Assembly: GCF_004005845.1 (NCBI RefSeq)
Contig: NZ_SADE01000001.1
Span: 682,001 to 746,000 of the forward strand
Length of the DNA stretch: 64,000 nt
DNA from: Hwanghaeella grinnelliae
GTDB taxonomy: Bacteria > Pseudomonadota > Alphaproteobacteria > UBA8366 > Aestuariispiraceae
Direction: 5' to 3'
How positions within the stretch are numbered: position 1 is the stretch's first letter; the number at the start of each line of letters is the position of its first letter. A model generated the notes under the pieces. The model was not told the DNA's origin. It ran no database searches and saw nothing but the letters and a program-made list of their open reading frames with translations. Made by a program: the position numbers and the translations under genes. This document shows positions 5,939 through 63,141 of the stretch, piece by piece.

Positions 5939-7279
5939 TTAATTCTGGATGTACCCCAGTTCCCGCAACAGCGGGCCGTTATCGACGCAGAAATCCTCAA
6001 TTGCCCGAACAAGGCCGTCATATTCCGGATGCCCCATGGGAAGGGACAGGGTCATCATACAGCGGGTCGCCATGTACTGTCCGCGCTCCAGCATTTCCAT
6101 ATAGAACAGGCGCTTGATTTGCGGGTCCAATGTCTTGACGTCTTGCGGCCGTTTGACCGGCGCATCGGTGAAATGGACGCACATCAGGGAACCCAAGCCC
6201 GTCGCCTGCGCCTTCATGCCGACGCGCTTGAAGCAGACATTAATGCGTCGGCGCAGGTCGTCGCCGGCGGCGTTCAGGGTTTTCGCCACTTTGCAGGTAT
6301 AGACCTGGGTCAGCCCGGTCAGGCCCGCCGCCATGGTCAGGACGTTGTTGTTGAACGTGCCGGCGTGCAGATAACCGCCGGGGCGGGAGGGATCGAAATG
6401 TGCCATGATGTCCCGACGGCCGCCGAAAGCGCCGAAGGTCAACCCGCCGCCGAGATATTTGCCCAGCGCGGTGAGGTCGGGGATGACGCCGGTCGCTTTC
6501 TGCAAGCCGCCTTCGGAAAGGCGGGAGGTGATGACTTCGTCGAAGATCAGAAGCGCGCCGACGGCTTCAGTCTCTTTTCGGATTGCTTCCAGGAACTCCT
6601 GGTCGGCGGGGATGCAGCCGCCGCTGCCCATCATCGGTTCCAGGGTGACGGCCGCCAGATCCTTGCCAACCCGGCGGATAGCGGCCACGGCGCCTTCGGT
6701 GTCGTTATAGTCCAGCAGTTCGACATCGTAGGGGGCGTTCAGTTTGCCATGTTCCCCATCCATCAGCAGGAAGCCGCCGTGATAGCCGCCTCGGAAAGCG
6801 AGGAATTTCTCCCGGCCGGTGACAGCCCGGGCAACCGCGAAGGTCATCAGGTTCGCTTCCGAACCGGAATTGCAGAAACGGATCAGATCGATGCCGGGAA
6901 AGCGCTGGACCAGTTCCTGGGCCAGTCCCGCTTCGTAGCGGTTCGGCGCACCCAAGACCGTGCCGCGTTCCATCGCGGTGACGACTGCTTCGCGGATGGT
7001 CTGATTGGTATGGCCGTAGAGGCCCGCTGAATATTCACCCAGAAAATCGACATAGCGGTGGCCGTCCAGGTCCTCCAGCATGCAGCCGTCCGCCAAGGTC
7101 ATGGTCAGCGGGGCCGGATCGAAATGCAGGACGGACCGTGTGTTCCCGCCGGGCATCCATTGCCGGGCGGCTTTGTGGCGTTCCATGCTGCGCGGATTGC
7201 GCGCGACAAACCGCGCTTCGGCCTCGGCCAATGCCTGGTCGAGGGTGAGATTTCTTGGGGTGTGGTTGGTCATTACCAT
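5939..7279 (-). CDS. Class-III PLP aminotransferase, glutamate-1-semialdehyde aminomutase-like
   Basis: 446 aa PLP enzyme of the ornithine/GABA/GSA aminotransferase fold. Motifs: GEYSAGLYGH near 81-90, the phosphate-cup FCNSGSEANLMT (135-146), GGYHGG (164-169), the cofactor aspartate in LIFDEVITSR (D247) and the Schiff-base lysine in ALGKYLGGG (K274). It resembles aspartate aminotransferase family proteins annotated as GSA aminomutase, but the N-terminus and loops differ from true HemL, so a catabolic or secondary role is more likely than tetrapyrrole synthesis (inference). Start 7279 or, two codons later, 7273. The gene upstream on the same strand is the N-acyltransferase-like 7413-8570. Confidence 0.88.
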   Translation of the reverse strand: MVMTNHTPRNLTLDQALAEAEARFVARNPRSMERHKAARQWMPGGNTRSVLHFDPAPLTMTLADGCMLEDLDGHRYVDFLGEYSAGLYGHTNQTIREAVVTAMERGTVLGAPNRYEAGLAQELVQRFPGIDLIRFCNSGSEANLMTFAVARAVTGREKFLAFRGGYHGGFLLMDGEHGKLNAPYDVELLDYNDTEGAVAAIRRVGKDLAAVTLEPMMGSGGCIPADQEFLEAIRKETEAVGALLIFDEVITSRLSEGGLQKATGVIPDLTALGKYLGGGLTFGAFGGRRDIMAHFDPSRPGGYLHAGTFNNNVLTMAAGLTGLTQVYTCKVAKTLNAAGDDLRRRINVCFKRVGMKAQATGLGSLMCVHFTDAPVKRPQDVKTLDPQIKRLFYMEMLERGQYMATRCMMTLSLPMGHPEYDGLVRAIEDFCVDNGPLLRELGYIQN

Positions 7280-7412
7280 GCCGGAGGTTATTGGTTCTGT
7301 GAGATCGTTCCAGCCAGCCTATCGTCTGCCCGGACCAGTGTCTACGTACCGCTCGCAGCCCCTCCGAAAGCGCGCGGTAAACCTGAACAACTAATCCTTA
7401 CGATTGGGACTA

Positions 7413-8570
7413 TCAGCCCCGTTTATAAGGGGAATGGTCATCCAGATACTCCATCACATGGGAAACCTCGTCCCGTTCCGCCACCAAAAACCGCTCAACC
7501 GCGTCGCGGAAGCCCGGATCGACGATGTGATGCGCGGAATAGGTCCGAACCGGCAGATATCCGCGCTGAACCTTGTGTTCACCCTGCGTGCCTGCCTCGA
7601 CGCGGGCCAAGCGGCGTTCGATGGCGAAATCGATCGCCTGGTAGTAACAGGCCTCGAAATGCAGGAAGGGATAGCGCCCGTCGGATCCCCAATTCCGCCC
7701 GAACAGGCATTCCGTCCCGATCAGGTTCAGGGCGCCGGCGACGGGTACGTCCCGGTCATAGACCAGGACAAGCATGACCCGGTCCCGCATTCTCTCCTGC
7801 AGCAGCCGGAAGAACTGGCGCGTCAGGTATGGGTGGCCCCATTTCCGGTCATAGGTCTGCTGGTAGAACAGATAGAAGGCGTCCCAATGGCTGTGTGTCA
7901 GGTCGTCGCCGGTCAGACGTTCGATGCGCAAGCCGCTATCGGTCGCTTTCTGTCGTTCTTTGCGGATGTTCTTGCGCTTCCGGCTGCTCAATGTGTCCAG
8001 GAAGTCGTCGAAACTGGCATAGCCCTGATTGTGCCAATGGTATTGTTGCCCATGGCGGATTAGGAATCCCGCATCCTCCAGCGCGTCGGCATCGGTCTCC
8101 GTGGCGAAATTCACATGCAGCGACGATACGCCGTGCTGCCGCGTGACCTCCATCAGTCCCGCGATCAACGCGCTGCGCGTTCCAATTTCGTCTCCCCCCG
8201 GCCGTACCATCAGGCGGGGGCCGGTGACCGGTGTGAACGGAACCGCGGACAGAAGCTTCGGATAGTATTGGCCGCCTGCGCGTTCATAAGCATGGGCCCA
8301 GCCGTAGTCGAAGACATACTCACCCTGACTGTTGCCCTTCAGGTAAAGCGGCACGGCGCCGATCAGACGGCCGGCGTCGTTCTGGATGATCAAATGCTGC
8401 GGCAGCCAGCCCTCGTCGGCGCAGGCCGACCGGCTTTCTTCAAGCGAATAGAGGAAGTCATGGCTGACGAACGGGTTTTCCGGCCCGGCACAGGCATCCC
8501 ATTCATCCCGCGCGACCGTGCCCAGGTCGCTTACGATATCGATGCGGACTGCTTCGTTGCCGTCTGGCAT
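7413..8570 (-). CDS. GNAT/FemAB-like predicted N-acyltransferase (DUF482, COG3146 family)
   Basis: 385 aa. Recognised by NPFVSHDFLYSLEESRS near the N-terminus, LPQHLIIQND, VPLYLKGNSQGEYVFDYGWA, and the C-terminal GNAT-like half with WGHPYLTRQFF and NLIGTECLFGRNWG. Family members are predicted peptidoglycan/peptide N-acyltransferases; substrate unknown. ATG at 8570 preceded by AAGGAGACACC, a strong ribosome site. The C-terminus HVMEYLDDHSPYKRG is conserved in the family. Divergent from the flavin oxidoreductase at 8733, with about 160 bp between them that should hold both promoters. Confidence 0.88.
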   Translation of the reverse strand: MPDGNEAVRIDIVSDLGTVARDEWDACAGPENPFVSHDFLYSLEESRSACADEGWLPQHLIIQNDAGRLIGAVPLYLKGNSQGEYVFDYGWAHAYERAGGQYYPKLLSAVPFTPVTGPRLMVRPGGDEIGTRSALIAGLMEVTRQHGVSSLHVNFATETDADALEDAGFLIRHGQQYHWHNQGYASFDDFLDTLSSRKRKNIRKERQKATDSGLRIERLTGDDLTHSHWDAFYLFYQQTYDRKWGHPYLTRQFFRLLQERMRDRVMLVLVYDRDVPVAGALNLIGTECLFGRNWGSDGRYPFLHFEACYYQAIDFAIERRLARVEAGTQGEHKVQRGYLPVRTYSAHHIVDPGFRDAVERFLVAERDEVSHVMEYLDDHSPYKRG

Positions 8571-8732
8571 GGTGTCTCCTTGCTTCTAGAAGACATGCGT
8601 CGACGATGGCATTGGATCAAGACCTTGTTGCGCCGCGGGGAAAGATTCCAGGCGGGCGCCGCCTTGACCGGCCGGAGGATTTCATGACTCTGCCCGGCAA
8701 ACGGCTGTTTGTTGTGGTGGAGGGTGCCGGAT

Positions 8733-10328
8733 ATGGGGAAGGCTGAAGAGTTCGATGTCATCGTTATCGGGGGCGGGCATAACGGTCTGACCTGTGCCGG
8801 CTATCTTGCGCGCGGCGGGCTGAAGGTGAAGGTCGTCGAGCGGCGCGACGTTATCGGCGGCGCCGCCCTGACGGAAGAGTTCCATCCCGGGTTCCGCAAT
8901 TCCGTCTTTTCCTATCTGGTCAGCCTGCTGTCGCCCAAGGTGATCGCGGATCTTGAACTGTCGCGCTATGGGCTGGAAATCATGGACCGCACATCTGGCA
9001 GTTTTTCCGTGCTGGAAGGCGATCATCTATGGCTGCCGCGGGACGGTGCGAAGGCGCGCGCGGAGGTCGCGCGGTTCTCCAAGGCCGATGCGGACGTGCT
9101 TCCCGAGTTTGAGGACCGGATCGCCCATGTGGCGGAGGCGCTGCGCGCCGTGGCGGAAGATGCCCCACCCGATTTCGGCGGCGGATGGCCGGACCTGTTG
9201 CGGCTGGTTTCTCTCGGCAACCGCGTCCGGAAACTCGGGCCCCAAGGGCAGGCGGATCTGGCGGACCTTATGAGCATGTCCGTCGGCCACTACCTGGAAC
9301 GTTGGTTCGAGAGCGACCCGATCAAGGGGATTTTCGGTTTCGAAGGGGTCATCGGGAATTTTGCGGGGCCGTATCAGGCCGGATCAGCCTATGTGTTGCT
9401 GCATCACGCCTTCGGTCAGGTGAACGGCCGCACCGGTGCCTGGGGCCACGCCAAGGGCGGTATGGGTGCGATTACGCAGGCCCTGGCCGCGTCGGCAAAG
9501 GCAGCGGGCGTTGATATAGAGACCGAAGCACCGGTCAAGGAAGTGATCGTCGAGAAGGGCAAGGCGGTCGGCGTTGCGCTGGAAGACGGGCGCGTGTTTC
9601 GCGGGCGCGGGGTTGCGTCGAACGTCAATCCGTCATTGTTGTTCGGGCAAATGGTCGACCCGGCCGTCGTGCCAAAAGAATTCAAGCGACGCATGGATAC
9701 CTGGCGCAGCGAATCCGCGACGTTCCGGATGAACTTGGCGCTCAGCGAAGCGCCGCGCTTCTCCTCCCTGCCGGGCGGGGATGCGGATTTCGCCTATCTG
9801 AACGGAACGATCGATATCTGTCCGTCGCTCGACTACATTCAGAACGCCTTTGACGATGCGCGGGCGGGTGGCTGGGCCAAGCGGCCGGTAATCTCCATGT
9901 GCCTGCCGACGACGCTCGACGATACCCTGGCACCGGAAGGCTGCCATGTTATGAGCTTGTTCTGTCAGCATTTCCGGCGGCATCTGCCCGATGGCACGTC
10001 TTGGGACGACCATCGTGAGGCCGTTGCCGACATGATCATCGATACGGTCGATCACTATGCGCCGAACTTCAAAGCCGCGGTCGTGGGGCGCCAGATCAAC
10101 TCACCCTTGGATATCGAGCGCAAGCTGAACATGGTGGGCGGCGATATCTTCCACGGCGCTCTGCATCTGGATCAGATATTCTCGATGCGGCCGGCACCGG
10201 GTCATTCAGACCATCGTATGCCGGTGCCGGGTTTGTACCTGTGCGGGTCCGGTGCCCATCCGGGCGGCGGCGTGACGGGCCTGCCCGGTCGGAATGCGGC
10301 GCTGGAGATCCTGCGCGACATCAAGTGA
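8733..10328 (+). CDS. FAD-dependent oxidoreductase, phytoene-desaturase / PYROXD2-like
   Basis: 531 aa amine-oxidase-superfamily flavoprotein. The frame opens at 8709, but ATG 8733 has GGAGGG 8 nt upstream and gives the canonical start MGKAEEFDVIVIGGGHNGL with the dinucleotide-binding GxGxxG. Further motifs: the second FAD strand VVERRDVIGGAA, GMGAITQALAASAK and the C-terminal FAD motif GLYLCGSGAHPGGGVTGLPGRNA. Bacterial homologues are often called phytoene dehydrogenase-like, yet no carotenoid genes are nearby, so a carotenoid role is unsupported. It ends 32 nt before the convergent RidA gene. Confidence 0.9.
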   Translation: MGKAEEFDVIVIGGGHNGLTCAGYLARGGLKVKVVERRDVIGGAALTEEFHPGFRNSVFSYLVSLLSPKVIADLELSRYGLEIMDRTSGSFSVLEGDHLWLPRDGAKARAEVARFSKADADVLPEFEDRIAHVAEALRAVAEDAPPDFGGGWPDLLRLVSLGNRVRKLGPQGQADLADLMSMSVGHYLERWFESDPIKGIFGFEGVIGNFAGPYQAGSAYVLLHHAFGQVNGRTGAWGHAKGGMGAITQALAASAKAAGVDIETEAPVKEVIVEKGKAVGVALEDGRVFRGRGVASNVNPSLLFGQMVDPAVVPKEFKRRMDTWRSESATFRMNLALSEAPRFSSLPGGDADFAYLNGTIDICPSLDYIQNAFDDARAGGWAKRPVISMCLPTTLDDTLAPEGCHVMSLFCQHFRRHLPDGTSWDDHREAVADMIIDTVDHYAPNFKAAVVGRQINSPLDIERKLNMVGGDIFHGALHLDQIFSMRPAPGHSDHRMPVPGLYLCGSGAHPGGGVTGLPGRNAALEILRDIK

Positions 10329-25036: not shown

Positions 25037-25178
25037 CAAAGAAACGTTTAAATATTAAGTGAACTAATGTAACTTTTCGTGGGGAATTTCTTATTTACGC
25101 TGGTGGTTTGGCTGTTTTTTTACATGGCCATACTTAAGATTTAGCCGCCTTTACTTAGGAATGGACGGCCTGGAACCG

Positions 25179-25976
25179 ATGTCGATCAATACGTTCATTG
25201 CCTTCCTTCTATGCATCAGCCTGTTTATCGGGTCGATCGTCATCAGCACGGACAACTATTGGATTTTCGCCAGCGGTTCCAGCTTTGTGATGGTTGTCGG
25301 CGGAACCTTGGCCGCCACATTCCTGGGGCAGGAGGCGCGCTATGTCCTGCTCGCTCTGCGTGGAATCTTATCCACTTTCTCGGTCCAGCGCATCGGCCGA
25401 AGCATTCTGAACCAGGAAGTCGGCCGAATTATCCGTTGGGGGTATTTGTCCCAGCAAAAGGGCGTTACGGCGTTGGAGCAGGAAGCCCAGAAGGTCAAGG
25501 CGGACCCGTTCCTGAGCTTCGGGCTTGAACTTGTCTTGTCGGGATACAAGGCAGACGACATCCGGTCCAACCTGCAATCTGTCGCGAATTCCACCTTCGA
25601 ACGGAACATGGTGCCGGCCAATATCTGCAAGAACATGGCGAGCACGGCGCCTGCCTTCGGCATGATCGGCACCTTGGTGGGGCTGATCATCATGCTGGAT
25701 GATATGGGAACGGATCCGACGCAACTGGGCAATGGACTTGCTGTCGCCCTCAATACCACGCTCTACGGCGTCATCATGGCGCGGATGATCTGTCTGCCGG
25801 CGGCCAACAAAATGACCCAGCGGCATGAAATCAACCGGTTTCGGCACGAATTGTTGTTGGAAGGACTGGCCCTTTTGGCCGACCGCAAGAACCCGCGCTT
25901 TATCCAGGACCGTATGAACAGTTTCCTGGACCCGGCAATCCGTTTCGACATCGACAAGCAACTGCGCGAACGGTAG
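25179..25976 (+). CDS. motA: Flagellar motor / MotA-TolQ-ExbB family proton channel subunit MotA
   Basis: 265 aa from ATG 25179 (271 aa if ATG 25161 is used; neither has a strong ribosome site). Four helices: two at the N-terminus (TFIAFLLCISLFIGSIVIS and a second at about 27-45), and two after the cytoplasmic domain (APAFGMIGTLVGLIIML and LNTTLYGVIMARMICLPAA). The PAFGMIGTLVGLI and TTLYGV sequences are the MotA/PomA signature. With MotB it forms the stator that couples ion flow to flagellar rotation. No other flagellar structural genes are in the window. motB follows after 10 nt. Confidence 0.92.
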   Translation: MSINTFIAFLLCISLFIGSIVISTDNYWIFASGSSFVMVVGGTLAATFLGQEARYVLLALRGILSTFSVQRIGRSILNQEVGRIIRWGYLSQQKGVTALEQEAQKVKADPFLSFGLELVLSGYKADDIRSNLQSVANSTFERNMVPANICKNMASTAPAFGMIGTLVGLIIMLDDMGTDPTQLGNGLAVALNTTLYGVIMARMICLPAANKMTQRHEINRFRHELLLEGLALLADRKNPRFIQDRMNSFLDPAIRFDIDKQLRER

Positions 25977-46465: not shown

Positions 46466-46802
46466 GTTCCTCTCCCCGGCATTTCGCTCTGGCTTCGCAT
46501 ACCCTTAATGGGAGCGTTGTCGGCAGACTATCCGTGCCCGCAAGGGATGTCAGGTATCTGCGTGGCGCGCGATATCTCTACGAAAATCAGGGTTTGGCGC
46601 GGAAACAAAGGGGCTGACAGAAAAATACCGCAGGTTTCATCATAACTTCATTGAAAAGTTTACAATTAATTAGAAGATTCGTACTTTAGAATAATCGCTG
46701 CACTTTGGCGCGCTGTAACGATTGGGACAAAAAAGCAGAACAACAATCGACAGTCGGACACGGTTTGGGGAAGCACGCCGCAGCCGACTAGGAGGAAATG
46801 CA
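46466..46802. other. Leader region upstream of the first MCP gene
   Basis: 337 bp with no gene. Around 46650-46680 it is AT-rich (TTTACAATTAATTAG), which may hold a promoter. AGGAGG at 46790-46795 is the MCP ribosome site. Confidence 0.5.
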
Positions 46803-49277
46803 ATGGTGGGGCGCATCGGGGGACTGGACCGGATCAAGGGCCGACTATTCTTGGCATTCGGCACCGTGACTGTCTTGACGATCGCGGCGGGCGTCGTCGC
46901 ATTGAAGGGTTTCGATACAGTTGAAAGCAGTTTTTCGTCGGTCACGGAACGCTCTATACCGACGATGGAAACGGCGCTGGAATTGGCGCGGGGAAGCGCG
47001 GAACTTTCCGCTGCTGCGCCCAGCCTGTCGACGGCGACCAGCATCGAGGACAGCGACAATATCCAAGCGGAACTCAAGGGCAGGCTATCCCGCATTACTG
47101 AATTGATCGGGCGGCTCGCTGCGCTGTCGGGGAACGGGGGCGGACAAGATCAGCTGACCGGGTTGGTCGACCGTTTCGGCACTGTGATCAGCACCCTGCA
47201 CGACGAGGTGAATGCCGGGCTTGCCGCAGAGTCGAAGTTGCGCGACGCCACAATCGGTGTGGCGCAAGTCCACAATACTTTGCTTGAGAAGATCGCCCCC
47301 ATCCTCGCCGCTGCTCAGGCGGAGGTTGGCAAAGGGTCGGCGGGACTCAGTCTCGGCGGTGTGCAGGCGGTCAACAAATTGACGGGCGAAGACCTGCCGC
47401 GGTTGACTGCGCTGTATGAACTTCAGTCCGGTATTGGCCAAGCGATCACAATGGTCGCCACGGGGGCGCCGGACGATAATCGGACGGCGATTTCCGAGGC
47501 GTTGGCGGCATCCGTCGCGAAACTGACGAAAAAGCATGAATATCCGGACCTTGCCGCTTCGGTCGAAGGCTTCGTCGCGACGATGGGCGCGGGCAACCTT
47601 GTCGCCCTGCTCGATCGGGAAGGGCCGATGCGGGCACAGATTGAAGAGCAGCGCGCGGCATTGGCCAAGGAACTTGCAGACGCCATGCAGCAATTCATGA
47701 TCGATAATTCGGTACGCGGTTCGACGCTGGTCAATACGTTGGTGAAGGAGGTCGGGACGCTGCTTAAGATCGAGGCCAATGCGAACCGCGCGGCCGGGCT
47801 GCTCAGCACCACTGCCAACCTGAATGACGCAGGGCAGATCGCGGAGTTGGAAGAAGCTTTGCTGCTGGCCATACGACAAACCTTGTTCGAGATCGGCGAA
47901 TTGCAGAACAAGGAATTCGCTGAGGAACTCAAAGCCGTCGCCGAGACGTTCAACGGCCTTGCGGAAGGGGAGGGCGGCATCGTTCAGATGCGCCAATCCT
48001 ACCTTGCTGCAAAAGACCGGGCCGCGGCGGCGCTGGGAGAGGCTCGCGAGGTTTCGGCGGCCTTCTCGGCGGCCGTAAACGATATTGTCGAAGGCGCCAG
48101 GGCCGAGGTTCGATCCGGCAATGAAGCGATTGCTGACGCTTTCGATAACAGCAAGAGCCTGTTGACGGTCATCGTCGCGGTCAGCGTTCTGGTGGCGCTT
48201 GCCATCGCATGGCTGTATGTCGGGCGGAATGTCGGCCGCAGGTTGGATGAACTTACCAAGGCGACGCGGGCCGTCGCCGATGGCGATCTCGACACCGAGA
48301 TCAATTTCACCGGTAAGGATGAAATCGCCGAAATGGGCGAGGCGCTGTTGGTCTTCAAGGACGGATTGGCAAATGCGCGGCTGGCCGATGAACGCGCCGC
48401 GAAGGAGCGTGAGGAAGCCGAGCGGAAACGCCGGACCGAGATGCACAAGATGGCCGATGAATTCGATGCAGGCGTGGGCGGCGTCGTCCGTGCCTTGGCT
48501 TCGGCATCGTCGGACCTTCAGGTTGCGTCCGAGAAAATGACCGGTGCGGCGGAAAATACCAGTCAGCAATCGGCCATCGTTGCCTCGGCCGCCGGCGATG
48601 CGTCGAATAACGTGAATACGGTGCGGTCCGCCTCGGAAGAACTGACCGCGTCGATCCTTGAGATCAGCCAACAGGTCCAACAGTCTTCGCAGATTGCCGC
48701 GCAGGCGGTGCAGGACGCCAGCGACACCGATAACCGGATCCAAAATCTGGCGCGGGCCGCCGACAAGATTGGCGAAGTGGTCGCGTTGATCACCGATATC
48801 GCCGAGCAGACGAACCTGCTCGCTCTGAACGCTACCATCGAAGCGGCCCGCGCGGGGGATGCCGGCAAGGGCTTCGCGGTCGTGGCCTCGGAAGTGAAGA
48901 GCCTCGCGACGCAAACGGCGAAGGCAACGGAAGAGATCAGCGGCCAGATTCAAAACATCCAATCCGCGACACGGGATTCCGTGCAGGCCATACAAAAGAT
49001 CAGCGAGACGATCGGCCGGATCGACTCGATCGGGTCCACGATTGCTTCGGCGATCGAGGAGCAAGGGGCCGCGACGCAGGAAATTTCCCGCAACGTGGAC
49101 GAGGCGGCGCAGGGGACCGGGCAGGTTTCCGCCAGTATCGACAATGTGACCTCGGCTGCATCGGAAACCGGGCAGGCGGCGGAGCAGATCCGAACCTCGT
49201 CGCAGGAGTTGTCCAAACAGTCCGACGTTTTGCGCGCGGAAATGAACAAGTTCCTCGAGCAGGTCCGCGCCGGTTAG
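46803..49277 (+). CDS. Methyl-accepting chemotaxis protein with large periplasmic domain
   Basis: 824 aa from ATG 46803 (TAGGAGGAAATGCA upstream). Helix 1 at about 15-36, a long helical periplasmic region to about 450, helix 2 [26 protein letters not shown] with [20 protein letters not shown], and a signalling domain with the tip IADQ-type line [38 protein letters not shown]. No CheB/CheR pentapeptide at the C-terminus (…KFLEQVRAG). The periplasmic part is long and helix-rich, like the HBM or NIT-type ligand domains, but I cannot name it. CheA/CheY genes are not in the window. Confidence 0.93.
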
Positions 49278-51387: not shown

Positions 51388-53574
51388 ATGTCTGACGACG
51401 AACAGGTCCACGAGACCGAAGATCAAAACGAAAATGACGGTGCCTCCGGCAAGCGTAAAGGCGTCGGTATTGCAGCGAAACTCATGGGGGCCTTTGCCGT
51501 CTGCACACTGCTGACGGTGGTGGTGTCCGGCCTTGCCTGGTTCAATGTGGGCCGGATTGGCGGCCTGTTCGAACAGACGGTCGGCGAAAGCGTCCCCAAG
51601 ATCGTAAATTCCGCCGAACTTGTTGTCGGCGCGAACCGGGTGGCGGCGGGCATGCCGGACTTGGCCTTTGCGGGTAATGACGAACACCGTCAGGCGGCCT
51701 ATTCGGCGCTCGATACCGGCATTCAAAATCTTCAAGCGGGGGTAGCTGAGATCGGCGCGACGACGCTTGAACAGAGTGTCGCGGAACTTCGTGCCCTCCT
51801 TACCACGGTGGATGCCGGGGTGCGCGCGCGGTTCGGGGTCGAAGAGCGCATCGCCGAGAAGGTGGCCCTCATAAAGGCCTTGTCCGAGAAAGGATTGTCG
51901 GTCATTCCGCCGCTGGTCACCAAGGCCAATGTCGATGTGATTTCAGCGACGGATACCATGTACGACATGGCCGACGAGCAAGGCGCGAACGCTGATGTTG
52001 AAGAAATCATCGATGCGGGACAAAGCCTTATCATGCAGCGGTTGCAGCCGCTTCGGGCCTCTCTGGACCTTCAGTCGAGCCTCACTCAGTCCGTCAGCAT
52101 TCTGAACCGCGCGGTGAACGAGACAACCGAGGAAGAGGTCGTCGCCAGCGCCAACGAATACCTGGCTGTGCTGGGCAAACTGACGGCCGTTCTGGTTAAA
52201 TTTGACGAAAGCCCGCAGGCGCCGGCCTTGAAGGAAGTGCTCGACGGGCTTATCGCACTTGGCGACACGACGGACGGTCTGTTTGCCGTGGTCGTGGAAA
52301 AAATAAGACTGAAGCAGGAAGCGGACGCGCTACTGACCAAGCAGGAAGCGTTGCTGAAAGGCCTTCTAACCGAAGCGGACGGGATCGTGACCGCGGCTCG
52401 GCAAAGCGCCGCGCAGGATGGCGAAACGGCCCTCGTAACCGTTGAAAACACCAAGATGCTCAGCATTGCGCTTGGCATCGTTGCGGTTGTGGTCGCGGCG
52501 GCCATAGCCTGGTTCTTCGTCCATGCGAACCTGGTCCGGCGCTTGACCGCGATGGTCGCTTCGATGCGCAAAATAGCGGATGGCGACCTAGACACCGATA
52601 TCCCAGCGGGTGGCACCGACGAAATCGGGACGATCGGGGAGACCCTGGAAGTCTTCCGGGAAAACTCTCGCGAGGTTTTGCGGGCATCTGAACAAAGACA
52701 GGTCGAGCGTGACCGGGCAGCGGCGGAACGCAAGACGGCGATGAACGATTTGGCGAATAATTTTGACCAAACCGTCAGCGGTATCGTTCAACGGGTCGGC
52801 GAAATGTCGTCCATCGTTCGCGGCGCGGCAGAGGGCATGAACGCCTCGGCCGGGACTTCGAAGCAGGAATCGACAGAAGCGGCCAGCCTGTCGAGCCAGA
52901 TGAACGACACGATGCAGACCGTGTCTTCCGCGACTGAGGAAATGGCCGCATCCATCGGCGAAATCAGTCAACAGGTTAGTAAATCGGTGGAAATCGCCGG
53001 CCGTGCGGTGGCCGAGGTCAATAGTACGGACCGGCAAATCTCTGAACTGTCGACGGCGGCGGACGAGATCGGCAGTATCCTGGGCATCATTTCCGACATT
53101 GCCGAGCAGACCAACCTGCTTGCCTTGAACGCCACGATCGAAGCGGCGCGGGCCGGTGACGCGGGCAAGGGGTTTGCTGTGGTCGCAAATGAAGTGAAAA
53201 GCCTGGCCAGTCAGACAGTCAAGGCGACGGACCAGATTGCGGAACAGATCGCGACCATGCAGGCATCGACGAAAGGGGCGGTACAGGCCGTCTCGGGCAT
53301 CGGTGAGATCGTGGCCGAAATCGACAGCATTTCCAGTGCGATCGCTGGGGCGGTCGAGGAGCAGGGCGCGGTCACACAGGAAATTGCCCGCAGCGTTTCT
53401 GAAAGCTTCCAGTCCTCCACCCAGATGTCCGAAAGCGTGAACCGTGTCGCCGAAGCCTCGGAATCGGCGGGACAACAGGCCGGTCAGTTGCTCGAAAATG
53501 CAGCGGAGATGACCGAGCTTTCAGGCGCTTTGAACCAGGAAATCGACCGTTTCGTGTCTTCCGTTCGGGCTTGA
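51388..53574 (+). CDS. Methyl-accepting chemotaxis protein with helical periplasmic domain
   Basis: 728 aa. Short charged cytoplasmic tail ([20 protein letters not shown]), helix 1 at about 31-52, periplasmic four-helix-type region to about 355, helix 2 ([22 protein letters not shown], 356-378), HAMP ([25 protein letters not shown]) and a signalling domain with [38 protein letters not shown]. No pentapeptide. It resembles 46803-49277 in layout but not in the sensor domain. ATG 51388 after CTAGGGGGGAACG, an excellent ribosome site. Confidence 0.93.
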
Positions 53575-58990: not shown

Positions 58991-59659
58991 CTAACGCGGC
59001 TGATCCGGTTCCATGAAATCGACCATGGCGGCTATCGTTGCAGCCAAGTTTTCCTCCTTGGTGTATCCCGACTTTACCCTGGGGGCTAGGTCGTGATTTC
59101 CGTCCGGGAGCCAGCAAAACTGCACATGGGAAGGCAGGGCGTAGTTTTCAATCTCTGCCCTGGTACCGAAAGGGTCGCGGTCCCCCTGACAGACAAGCAC
59201 AGGGCATGAAATTTCGGGAAAGTGATCGGTACGTGTCTTCTCAGGCTTGCCTGGCGGATGGAACGGATACCCCAAGCACAGAACGGCCTGGAACAATGGT
59301 TTTTCAACGGCTTGCGCCGCCAGCAGGGTGGCCATCCGCCCCCCCATCGATTTCCCACCGATATAAATAGAAGCACCCTTGGGCGCGGTCTCCGAAATCT
59401 GTTGGATCACTTTTTGGAAATGATCCAACAGGACGGGCTGTCGATCCGGCGGACGTTTCTTACCACCGTGACGACGCCCGGCCATGTACGGAAACTCGAA
59501 CCGGACACAGCGGATGGCAGCCGTGGCGACGCCATCGGCAACGGCATTCATAAAAGGGGAATCCATCGGCGCGCCTGCGCCATGCGCCAGAATCAATACG
59601 GTGGAACTCTGTACGGGGCCTGTCGATAGAAAATCCATGGGTGGTGTGTACTCTGTCAC
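58991..59659 (-). CDS. Alpha/beta hydrolase (Tex30/KANL3-like small hydrolase)
   Basis: 222 aa from GTG 59659 (VTEYTPP) or 215 aa from ATG 59638. The long frame upstream to 61045 is antisense to the CheW-globin gene and rejected. Lines VLILAHGAGAPMDSPFMNAVADG (oxyanion region), FPYMAGRRHGGKKRPPDRQPVLLDHF, nucleophile elbow GGKSMGGRMATLLA, VLVCQGDRDPFG and GNHDL with Asp and His to complete the triad. Family function unknown (dienelactone-hydrolase-like). Convergent genes on either side are far; promoter region 59660-59851 is shared with the CheW-globin gene. Confidence 0.85.
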   Translation of the reverse strand: MTEYTPPMDFLSTGPVQSSTVLILAHGAGAPMDSPFMNAVADGVATAAIRCVRFEFPYMAGRRHGGKKRPPDRQPVLLDHFQKVIQQISETAPKGASIYIGGKSMGGRMATLLAAQAVEKPLFQAVLCLGYPFHPPGKPEKTRTDHFPEISCPVLVCQGDRDPFGTRAEIENYALPSHVQFCWLPDGNHDLAPRVKSGYTKEENLAATIAAMVDFMEPDQPR

Positions 59660-59719
59660 TTGCCGTCTCTTGCCGTTGTTTGTGGATCGTCGCCGGTTGC
59701 GGTAAAATTGTACGTTCCG

Positions 59720-59734
59720 TAAATGCTCCGTTAA
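59720..59734. promoter_or_regulatory. CtrA-box-like TAAA-N7-TTAA upstream of the CheW-globin gene
   Basis: TAAATGCTCCGTTAA matches the CtrA consensus TTAA-N7-TTAA at seven of eight fixed bases, 118 bp before the CheW-globin start. CtrA controls motility and chemotaxis genes in many alphaproteobacteria. A single weak match, so only suggestive. Confidence 0.25.
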
Positions 59735-59851
59735 CCTTTGTCTGTGAATATGATCGAGATGCCAATGGGGTATCTCAGATAATAACCATGGCTGCCGTGA
59801 CCGAAATTGGCGTCTCGGTTTCCATGAAAGCGTTCGAAGCGAGGAATTAGA

Positions 59852-60994
59852 ATGTCCAATTTGGTTGTCGCCGAAAGCACCGAATTGACCATGATCGACG
59901 AAGAGCAGCTGGTCACCATGATGGTCGATAATCAGTTGTTTGGTATTCCGATCTTGAAGGTCCAGGACATCGTTGAGCCGTCTCAGATCACGCCGGTGCC
60001 CTGTGCGCCCAGCGCGATCGCGGGGGTATTGAACTTGCGCGGACGTATCGTCACGGTCATCGACCTGCGTGAACTTCTCGGCGCGAAGGAAGAAGATGCC
60101 CGCCGTCAGATGAGTGTGACGATCGAGCACAAGGGCGACCTCTATACCCTTCTTGTCGATTCGATCGGCGATGTCCGCTCGCTGCCTAAGCGTGATTTCG
60201 ACAAGCCGCCGGCGACGCTGGACGAGAATATGCGGCGCCTTTGTTCCGGGGTATTCCGGTTGGAAGACAATCTTCTCGTCGTGCTGGACGTCAGCCGGAT
60301 CCTCGATGAAGAGACAATCATGAAGACGCCCCGCCGCACGCGCCGGCGCCGTGTGTTGAAAGCTGCGTCCGGTGGTAAGAAAAGCGCCAGCACGGACGAG
60401 GATGGCCCGGCAGCCGCCGAGGCCAAAGCGATTGAAGACAAACAGGACGGATCCGCACCGCGCGGCGATGCGAAAAGTGGGGTGACCTCCGCCCGCAGTT
60501 CGGCCCCTGCCAACGACACGGATACCAAGAAGCGGGAGACGAAACAGGCTAGTGCATCCAAGTCGGACAGCGCCCCGAAACCGGCGAACGCCCCAAAACC
60601 AGCTAGTGCAGGGCCGAAGCAGGCGGGCGACGCCTTGGTCGACCGGTTGGGCGGCGAAGCCAAAGTCGAGGCCTATGCAAGTTCGCTGTTCGACCTGGTG
60701 ATGGCGGACCCGATTCTGAATCATTTCGCTGAAGGTCAGGATACATGGGCGATTGCCTCGGCATTCAAATCCTACAGCCTGGCAGCGACAGGCGGTAAAT
60801 CCTCGGACAGTGTCGAGGATTTGAAAGTGGTGCTTCAACTCCTCGCCCGAGAAGAAGGATTGGATGACGATCACTTCATTGCGGTCGCAAAGCACGCCAA
60901 TGAAGTCCTGTCCAAGGATCGTGCCCCTGCACCGGCCGTGCACGATGTGCTGGAATTGATCGACAGCCTCAGGAACGAAACCGTCACGCATTAA
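59852..60994 (+). CDS. CheW-domain protein fused to a truncated-globin-like domain
   Basis: 380 aa. CheW domain at about 15-158: VTMMVDNQLFGIPILKVQDIVEP, PSAIAGVLNLRGRIVTVIDLRELLG and LLVVLDVSRILD are canonical adaptor motifs. A flexible Ala/Lys/Pro/Ser linker (about 160-258) leads to a C-terminal domain (260-376) that aligns with group-I truncated haemoglobins: LVDRLGGEAKVEAYASSLFDLVMADPILNHF and GLDDDHFIAVAKHANEVL. In the alignment I can make by eye, the proximal heme His (HbN ...VHQ...) is Leu328 (VLQ) and the B10 Tyr is Asp281; Phe292 remains at CD1. So the domain may not bind heme. ATG 59852, GAGGA upstream. Probably links receptor arrays to CheA while sensing something. Confidence 0.88.
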   Translation: MSNLVVAESTELTMIDEEQLVTMMVDNQLFGIPILKVQDIVEPSQITPVPCAPSAIAGVLNLRGRIVTVIDLRELLGAKEEDARRQMSVTIEHKGDLYTLLVDSIGDVRSLPKRDFDKPPATLDENMRRLCSGVFRLEDNLLVVLDVSRILDEETIMKTPRRTRRRRVLKAASGGKKSASTDEDGPAAAEAKAIEDKQDGSAPRGDAKSGVTSARSSAPANDTDTKKRETKQASASKSDSAPKPANAPKPASAGPKQAGDALVDRLGGEAKVEAYASSLFDLVMADPILNHFAEGQDTWAIASAFKSYSLAATGGKSSDSVEDLKVVLQLLAREEGLDDDHFIAVAKHANEVLSKDRAPAPAVHDVLELIDSLRNETVTH

Positions 60995-61010
60995 TCTCAT
61001 CGTGGGCCGG

Positions 61011-61043
61011 GCCGGCCAGTGCCGGGAAAAAACGCTGGCTGGC
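61011..61043 (+). promoter_or_regulatory. Weak hairpin between CheW-globin and histidine kinase genes
   Basis: GCCGGCCAG pairs with CTGGCTGGC (one G-U) around a 15-nt loop in the 176-bp gap. No U-tract follows the stem, so terminator function is doubtful. Confidence 0.3.
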
Positions 61044-61170
61044 AATAGTTCGTCCGAAATATTACTCGGCCGGCGCTCTGCAGCTTTACGTTGACGCGGG
61101 ATGCCTATTTACATCAGATGAATCTGATACTCTGATGGTGCCGTGATCCAGTAGAGGGTTTGGCGCAGGC

Positions 61171-63141
61171 ATGGAATACCTCCCTGAATTCAAATCGGTA
61201 CAAACCGGAAAATCCGCGGTCGACGATAAAACGACGGCCGCGTTCCCATATGGGCCCTTGGGGCGTGGGGTTTGTCGGTATGCCGCCTTTTACTGCCTTT
61301 CCGTCACTGTTCTGACGTCCGTCATTTGGTTCGTGGCGAGAGACCTGACCGCAGCGGTTTGGTGCGCGTTGGGTGTTTCCCTGATTCTCACCGCGGCTGC
61401 CGTGTTGTTATTGGGGAATAGAAAATTCTGGCCGAAACATGACGACGTAGGCGACCGCCTTACGCCTGAGGAGGCTTTGGTCGCATACGATTTGCTCTCC
61501 ACGTTGATCGATTCGATGCCGGCCAACTTCTTGGTCAAGGACAAGGAGCACAGATATATCCTGGTCAATAAGACGATGGGGGATTGGTTCGGCTGGGACC
61601 CGGCGGATGTTCTTGGCAAGCGCTTCGACGAAATTTCATGGAACAGGGATTACAGCGCTGAATTTCCGAAAATCGAGGAGGAAGACGAGCGTGTCCTGAA
61701 GACGGGCGAATCCACCGAACGGTTCTTTGAAATCGAAGGCCCGTATGGAAACTGGATCAAGCTGTTGTCGCGGCGTTTTGCGATCCGGTCCGCCGAAGGA
61801 GAAATCGTCGGTATCGCTGTCATCAACGTCGATATGACGGAACTTGAGGCAACCCGGGATGAATTCGAGGCGCTTCGGCGTGAAAGAGACCGACAGGCGT
61901 TCATTTTCAAGAACTTCTTCGAAGCACTCCCCTTTCCGGCGGCCATGAAAGATATGGACGGTCGCTTCTTGAGCGTGAATTCGCAGCTCTACAAATGGCC
62001 ACCCTTCTCCGGAACCAATATCATCGGGCGTCGTCTCGACGAGGTCATGGAATATGAAGCTGCGAAAGACTCCATAGAACTCGACGCGCAAGTTCTCCGC
62101 ACGAGGGAGCCAGGGGAAATCGAACGCGATGTACCCTATGTTGGCGAGACAACTCGAAGCGTGCGGATTCTTCGATTCCCGATTTTGGACGATGATGGCG
62201 AATTGTTTGGCCTGGGCTTGTTTAATATCGACGTGACGGATCAACGTGCAGCCGAGCGTTTGCTAAAAGACACCAATGTGGAACTGGAGCGATTGGTCAG
62301 CGACCGCACGTCCGAATTGGAAAATGCGAATGCCGAGCTGACGCGAACGCTGGATGAATTGAAGGCAACGACCGACCTGCTGATTGAATCGGACCGGATG
62401 GCCTCGCTTGGGTCCATGGTCGCCGGCATGGCACATGAAATAAACACGCCGATCGGTGTAGGGGTTACGGCTGCCAGCCTGGTTCGGGACAAGGTCGATC
62501 AATTGCAGAAAGACTTTGGGGCAGGGACGCTGACGCGGGACGGCATGACCGAATCCATGTCGGTCATTGACGAAGCGTCGGACGTGATGTTGCGCAATAT
62601 GGCGCGCGCGGATGGCCTGATACGAAGCCTGAAACAGGTCGCCGTCGATCAAACCAATCTGGAAACACGCGATGTGCAGTTAGAGCACTATATTCGCGAC
62701 GTTGAATTGAGTGTCGCCCCTGTATTACGAAAATCAGGTATTTCTATTGAAATCGACTGCCGGGCCGATCTAACCCTGTGTCTTCAACCGGGTCCTTTGG
62801 CTCAGGTTATGACAAATATCCTGATGAATTGCGTCCATCACGCCTATCCGGAAGGCGAGGGTGGCCGGATAAAGATCACGACGGTGCTTTCCGATGACGG
62901 TGTCGAAATCCGCTTTCGGGATTTCGGCGTCGGGATGGATCAGGAAACCGCCGGTCAGGCCTTCGTGCCATTTTTTACCACGCGGCGGAACAAGGGCGGG
63001 ACAGGACTGGGGCTGTCGATCGTCTACAACGTGGTGCGGTCGGTTCTGGGCGGCGATATCGCCTGTGAGAGCGTGAAAGGCAAAGGGACCCTCTTCATCG
63101 TCACCTTGCCGGCAAACTGCGTGGTCAATCAGACTGCATAA
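61171..63141 (+). CDS. PAS-domain sensor histidine kinase
   Basis: 656 aa. Two N-terminal membrane helices (about 36-54 and 62-80), then two PAS domains (about 108-224 and 246-360), each ending in a VDMTELE / IDVTDQRA C-terminal signature, a coiled coil (ERLVSDRTSELENANAELTRTLDELK) and a kinase core: H-box MASLGSMVAGMAHEINTPIGV (His422), N-box MTNILMNCVHHAYPEGEGG, G1 FRDFGVGMD, F-box and G2 NKGGTGLGLSIVYNVV. The NTPIGV type is common in kinases with NtrB-like H-boxes. No receiver domain, and no response regulator next to it. Overlaps the convergent TetR gene by 13 nt. Confidence 0.93.
   Translation: MEYLPEFKSVQTGKSAVDDKTTAAFPYGPLGRGVCRYAAFYCLSVTVLTSVIWFVARDLTAAVWCALGVSLILTAAAVLLLGNRKFWPKHDDVGDRLTPEEALVAYDLLSTLIDSMPANFLVKDKEHRYILVNKTMGDWFGWDPADVLGKRFDEISWNRDYSAEFPKIEEEDERVLKTGESTERFFEIEGPYGNWIKLLSRRFAIRSAEGEIVGIAVINVDMTELEATRDEFEALRRERDRQAFIFKNFFEALPFPAAMKDMDGRFLSVNSQLYKWPPFSGTNIIGRRLDEVMEYEAAKDSIELDAQVLRTREPGEIERDVPYVGETTRSVRILRFPILDDDGELFGLGLFNIDVTDQRAAERLLKDTNVELERLVSDRTSELENANAELTRTLDELKATTDLLIESDRMASLGSMVAGMAHEINTPIGVGVTAASLVRDKVDQLQKDFGAGTLTRDGMTESMSVIDEASDVMLRNMARADGLIRSLKQVAVDQTNLETRDVQLEHYIRDVELSVAPVLRKSGISIEIDCRADLTLCLQPGPLAQVMTNILMNCVHHAYPEGEGGRIKITTVLSDDGVEIRFRDFGVGMDQETAGQAFVPFFTTRRNKGGTGLGLSIVYNVVRSVLGGDIACESVKGKGTLFIVTLPANCVVNQTA

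Follow-up and report, generated by a model that had tools for sequence, protein, structure and literature searches.

Sensors built onto the coupling protein CheW are already known as a kind. CheWS of Treponema denticola, a CheW joined to a CheR-like SAM sensor, is called the first reported characterised CheW-fused chemotaxis sensor in PMC10653840, where its extra domain was modelled below the ring, beside CheA P4. The same paper (2023) counts 30 unstudied CheW architectures in Pfam, given in a supplementary figure, and the word globin is absent from its main text. CheV (PMC4742279) is another adaptor, in which a receiver domain with a regulatory role is joined to CheW. Globins feed chemotaxis arrays in HemAT-type receptors and in a Corallococcus Bac_globin-PAS-MCP protein (PMC6194562), and the stressosome globins of the RsbR type (PMC4976288) have heme and non-heme members in one signalling family, the non-heme ones being without the proximal His and the distal Tyr.

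We analysed a 64,000-nucleotide stretch of the Hwanghaeella grinnelliae genome (the window), in which one gene encodes a CheW domain followed by a globin. It resembles CheWS in architecture, with a ligand-type domain C-terminal to CheW, the ligand role being putative here. However, CheWS has a CheR-like fold, SAM as its ligand and a classical CheW alongside, whereas the window fusion has no known ligand, a globin fold and a long linker; no other stand-alone CheW accompanies the globin fusion in 11 of 16 genomes. As in the HemAT-type and Corallococcus proteins, of which the latter is also a Bac_globin, a globin would feed the chemotaxis array, but theirs sits on an MCP receptor. The window globin sits C-terminally on a coupling protein, is closest to group-1 truncated haemoglobins (trHb1) and lacks the heme-binding His at F8, which separates it from HemAT-type globin-coupled sensors. 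CheV likewise joins a regulatory domain to CheW, but it is an additional adaptor; the window protein, with no receiver domain match in a Pfam search, carries a globin and looks like a core CheW. Heme and non-heme members occur together as in RsbR, although RsbR belongs to the sensor-globin class and has a STAS output, whereas the window fusion combines trHb1 with CheW. Single-domain trHb1 proteins (1dly, THB1 and HbN) share the sequence family and fold of the window domain, which, unlike them, has lost heme-pocket residues and is tethered to CheW. The first-pass annotation knew of no described CheW-globin adaptor, and none is described among the matches listed in the open-access full-text literature. 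Within the known kind, a globin on an apparent core CheW, with some branches that keep the heme residues and others that have lost them, appears to be a new version.

The features of the gene, in window coordinates, are as follows.

59842..59845, plus strand: AGGA, a probable ribosome-binding stretch, 6 bases 5' of the ATG (by eye)
59852..60994, plus strand: cheW-globin fusion gene, ATG start, 380 amino acids, with full-length or two-piece one-frame relatives
59906..60310, plus strand: CheW domain, residues 19-153 (PF01584, 116.9 bits, E 6.8e-34, profile positions 1-136 of 138)
60320..60616, plus strand: low-complexity linker, residues 157-255 (from sequence; without secondary structure in a low-confidence full-length model)
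60629..60991, plus strand: trHb1-derived domain, residues 260-380 (from sequence, by Pfam, phmmer and profile, and from fold)
60689..60691, plus strand: Phe280, at the B10 Tyr position (alignment)
60728..60730, plus strand: Ala293, at the CD1 Phe position, with Phe292 one place earlier (alignment)
60833..60835, plus strand: Leu328, at the F8 proximal-His position (alignment)
60845..60916, plus strand: helix-G region, residues 332-355 with approximate bounds, where the domain is most conserved within the window clade (83% identical)

A CheW protein with a trHb1-derived domain

The open reading frame, the complete CheW domain and the low-complexity linker of about 100 residues all stand as the first-pass annotation had read them. 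CheW scored far above the Pfam cut-off (116.9 against 23.5 bits), which places the protein, by sequence, among CheW coupling proteins, and no kinase domain match was returned for it by the Pfam search. The linker is probably disordered, and the full-length fold model (pLDDT 42.9) is too poor for domain placement. An antisense open frame of 684 amino acids (58991-61045, minus strand) spans the whole cheW-globin gene and runs into a hydrolase-like gene; its stretch opposite cheW is probably non-coding.

The C-terminal domain, which had been likened to group-I truncated haemoglobins, is derived from trHb1, with a similarity beyond chance. Pfam Bac_globin matched the isolated C terminus at 15.8 bits (E 0.017), under its cut-off of 21, and a phmmer search of PDB sequences matched the window domain to the trHb1 1dly at 1.1e-7. 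With a three-sequence profile of the window domain and two relatives, the values were 3.1e-16 for 1dly, 2.4e-15 for 1uvx and 1.7e-11 for THB1. TAL-effector repeat chains stood at the top of PDB sequence searches and were rejected because their score sums many repeats, each of at most 7 bits in the printed alignments. Bac_globin scored 31-66 bits in eight of ten same-architecture relatives tested; it was weak in one more (G005, locus L005, 12.5 bits), and in the tenth, Aestuariispira (L002), there was no match. These scores do not strictly follow the presence of the F8 His, with 53-66 bits in four His members, 47 in the His-less G006, 46 in G010 and 31 in both G035 and G038.

Structure prediction, which had been proposed as a check, agreed with the sequence searches. 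For the model of the globin domain (pLDDT 71.7, three-sequence alignment), Foldseek ranks 1-36 went to haemoglobins, almost every one carrying the label truncated, with a single row at E <0.001, and structure comparison gave Z 12.7 to THB1, 12.3 to 1dly and 11.8 to HbN (1idr). Helical proteins may reach high structural scores without kinship, so the sequence evidence bears the weight. A chance match or mis-assembly of the fusion was rejected because the same architecture occurs in several genera.

Heme-pocket residues and the spread of the fusion

In alignments to 1dly and 1uvx, the proximal His at F8 is replaced by Leu328, as had been seen by eye; the adjoining details changed. The B10 Tyr had been placed on Asp281, one place off from the aligned column at Phe280, and the CD1 Phe, thought to be kept as Phe292, corresponds to Ala293. 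The four-residue insertion reported after the Leu is absent relative to THB1 and amounts to two residues relative to 1dly. B10, CD1 and F8 lie in the ungapped part of the alignment, and all three heme-pocket positions are thus altered; the E7 and E11 columns hold Ile301 and Phe305. Helix positions carry the usual globin labels and reference numbers, and the aligned columns themselves were computed. Because F8 is Leu328, we class the domain as trHb1-derived and not as a haemoglobin. With the heme-holding residues lost, it probably works without heme.

The fusion is common to three families of one order. The two named relatives, a Hwanghaeella MAG and Aestuariispira insulae, are both Aestuariispiraceae (NCBI taxonomy). 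Searches for the CheW matched 12 of 14 genomes of the window's family and 34 of 43 of its order, some of these being other CheWs. Among 30 CheW proteins extracted from the order, the window's included, 22 have the globin. In seven others, from family f3, the same CheW ends in a long disordered tail without a visible globin, an absence read directly in five of the seven since L044 and L045 end at a contig edge. In these orthologues (L040-L045 and L047) the disordered tail stands in place of the globin and has a K-rich end in most, and no Bac_globin match was found anywhere in six of the seven f3 genomes searched. Eight of the 30 proteins are omitted from the globin alignment, namely the seven of f3 and G017, which is cut by a contig end, and the fusion profile was aligned from 21 of the 22 fusions. 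This 21-row profile was run on a sample of 398 Pseudomonadota genomes, at most five candidates being scored per genome, and the window's own genome alone gave a full-length match; the other matches listed were to the CheW half or the globin half. In the class sample, 137 of 385 genomes had a match, and all those outside the window's family stopped at or before query residue 257, ahead of the globin. Elsewhere in the Pseudomonadota, G615:C275 and G506:C14 hold longer truncated-haemoglobin frames with two globin matches each, and G642:C93 (L125) has one globin match in a 616-residue frame.

Heme-pocket residues differ between branches. The B10-CD1-F8 triplet is Tyr-Phe-His in seven of the 22 fusions, Tyr-Tyr-His in two and Phe-Phe-His in one; these ten, with an F8 His and aromatic B10 and CD1, look heme-competent from their residues. 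None of the 11 fusions in the window's family has this combination. Their triplets are Phe-Ala-Leu (two, one of them the window), Tyr-Ala-Leu (one), Ala-Phe-Tyr (three), Leu-Ile-Val, Leu-Leu-Tyr, Gln-Val-Tyr, Leu-Leu-Ser and, in G010, Ile-Leu-His. The fused globin of G038 has a deletion at F8. That the window domain still binds heme by some other residue and is a gas sensor of an unusual type is very improbable in our estimation: the family descends from heme-binding trHb1 and G004 has a His one place past the F8 column, but at this place the window has Gln and G005 has Asp, and all three members of the window clade have Leu at F8 and Ala at CD1.

On the CheW tree, the F8 His requires five label changes, at least four of them forced by well-supported branches. 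One loss at the base of family f1 with a regain in G010 and several losses are histories that cannot be told apart. The globin tree, built without rows L107, L109 and L110, needs two changes, and 34% of its bootstrap trees show a single origin, which falls short of proof of one fusion event. Separate lateral insertions of the fusion are not favoured because the neighbours recur: an AsmA-like gene in 12 of 19 loci, a fumarase-like gene in 12 and an alpha/beta hydrolase in 10 (the latter two named by eye), counts that are lower bounds since ORF picking sometimes took the antisense frame. A PAS-PAS histidine kinase lies directly 3' of the fusion (61171-63141, plus strand) and recurs in at most one of 18 other loci.

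A probable CheW of the flagellar che system

The fusion appears to be the core cheW of the flagellar operon in a new location. We compared 26 class-level loci (L052-L077), the best-scoring 26 of 133 matching genomes outside the window's family: in 25 of them the nearest CheW is preceded by CheA, and it is followed by CheY in 24 and by CheB in 23, one locus having CheW alone and one ending just after CheW. The CheA parts from these loci are 54-64% identical to the 948-residue CheA of the window genome, which is encoded on contig C4 in an operon chpT-cheA-cheY-cheB-cheR adjoining ctrA, fliI and fliJ. Calls of cheA rest on PF02895 and PF01584, those of cheY, cheB and cheR were made by eye and then by BLAST, and chpT, ctrA, fliI and fliJ were named by eye. 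The flagellar CheA itself (L111, G000:C4:118000-136000, positions 7244-10087) contains a pair of CheW-type domains, and a receiver domain at its C terminus was read by eye.

Six che operons of the window's order have no separate cheW, and in one of them (L116) cheY was likewise not found. Besides the CheA gene, the fusion is the sole CheW-domain gene in 11 of the 16 genomes in which both a fusion and a CheA were detected, a count that covers genomes other than G004; in five more fusion genomes, all <90% complete, no CheA was found. The window genome belongs to the other five: it has two CheA genes, and a 190-residue CheW accompanies the second on contig C1, so the fusion is not the sole CheW there. 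Its partnership with the flagellar CheA of contig C4 is suggested by these gene arrangements. MCP signalling domains occur in 31 frames of the window genome. The window holds two MCPs, as annotated (46722-49277 and 51388-53574), and of the motAB pair ascribed to it, the MotA part was recovered as a MotA/ExbB-type protein at 25161-25976. Two other CheW genes were seen in passing. The CheW at G020:C194:69260-69747 has stops within it, and no CheA was detected in that genome, whose chemotaxis system is decaying. A 527-residue frame at G032:C52:2476-3984 has three tandem CheW domains, with a CheA on the same contig.

Constraint on the globin and its possible role

We read the window protein as a flagellar core CheW with a captured trHb1 that would now serve as a heme-independent contact module tuning the array, a proposal on which our confidence is evenly balanced. 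A sensor-type globin would have become attached to the coupling protein, and the window lineage would later have lost heme and re-used the domain. By analogy with CheWS, the CheW domain may take its place in the ring of CheA, CheW and receptors, with the globin hanging on a long flexible tether from which it could influence CheA. In related lineages that retain the heme residues, the globin could be a built-in O2/NO sensor.

The constraint on the globin bears on this proposal from both sides. Relative to G004 and G005, the window protein is 87-90% identical in CheW, 59-60% in the globin and 33-40% in the linker, and over eight pairs within the window's family the globin is 41-71% identical against 83-96% for CheW. 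In four of five pairs that keep the His, conservation of the globin comes close to that of CheW (90 against 93% for G014/G015, 72 against 80% for G022/G024, 74 against 77% for G018/G019 and 87 against 95% for G034/G035); in the fifth, G014/G016, it is lower (68 against 89%). Most pairs are close to saturation at synonymous sites, so that dN/dS is hardly informative. Globin evolution much faster than that of CheW in His-less lineages, with the globin no better conserved than the linker in two of the eight family pairs, fits decay too. It counts against a contact module, as do the second CheA and the 190-residue CheW of the window genome, the poor full-length model, the two family clades in which the helix-G bias described below is not significant, and the same CheW without a globin in f3.

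The main rival is a relic, in which the function of the globin went with its heme and left a drifting tail on a working CheW. We consider this unlikely, though it has several observations on its side: the low identities within the family, the variation of F8 between Leu, Tyr, Val and Ser with B10 and CD1 varying too, and the f3 CheW, which does without the globin. The distribution of separate globin genes also bears on it. A separate Bac_globin gene scoring 57 bits or more is present in all ten genomes in the alignment with the His and aromatic B10 and CD1; in the 11 searched fusion genomes without intact heme residues (G004 lay outside the search) there is none above 31 bits, as if the cell had lost its heme-trHb1 function. 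This correlation is a lead only, since about two independent losses (family f1 and G038) stand behind it, and G017, outside the alignment, is an exception, its cut fused globin reading Tyr-Phe-His by eye in a genome without a separate Bac_globin gene. Among the separate globins, seven full-length ones share 48-60% identity with the domain fused to CheW in G019.

Against a relic, the matched frame is free of stop codons in 11 members of the window's family, the model still has the truncated-haemoglobin fold, and the globin exceeds the linker in identity in six of the eight family pairs (it does not in G006/G007, 41% for both, or in G010/G012, 67 against 70%). Conservation within the globin has also shifted. 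The window clade has 83% identity in helix G against 50% in helices A-F (p 5e-5 by column shuffling, the lowest value that 20,000 shuffles can give), whereas the pattern is reversed in the His-keeping f2 (61% against 72%; contrast with the window clade p 2.5e-4), p values that are rough because alignment columns depend on one another and the helix boundaries are approximate. The same bias appears in family clade g7, which includes the His-bearing G010 (p 0.012), and is not significant in two further family clades (p 0.20 and p 0.48). On the contact-module reading, the window domain would use chiefly its helix-G face to contact a protein, be it itself, CheA or some other partner in the array, and in this way tune the array.

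Next after the relic comes a heme-free ligand sensor, in which the emptied pocket would bind another small molecule, such as an alcohol or a fatty acid, and signal through CheW. There are precedents: the globin of Bacillus subtilis HemAT binds ethanol without using its heme (PMC7542364), RsbR includes non-heme globins (PMC4976288), and CheWS has a CheW-tethered domain able to sense a ligand (PMC10653840). We nevertheless find such a sensor rather improbable here, as a conserved ligand site predicts the opposite of what the window clade displays, where the pocket helices A-F are less conserved than helix G.

For the order as a whole, we tentatively suggest that its core CheW may be a heme-based O2/NO sensor in the His members and, in the window's family, a heme-free part in signalling or assembly. 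If so, the gas state would gate the whole array whatever its receptors, and the order would supply a natural series of one sensor before and after the loss of its cofactor. CheW is usually seen as a linker, and the fusion lets input at the coupling layer be tested directly; related proteins with and without the heme residues could show what a sensor domain does after its cofactor is lost.
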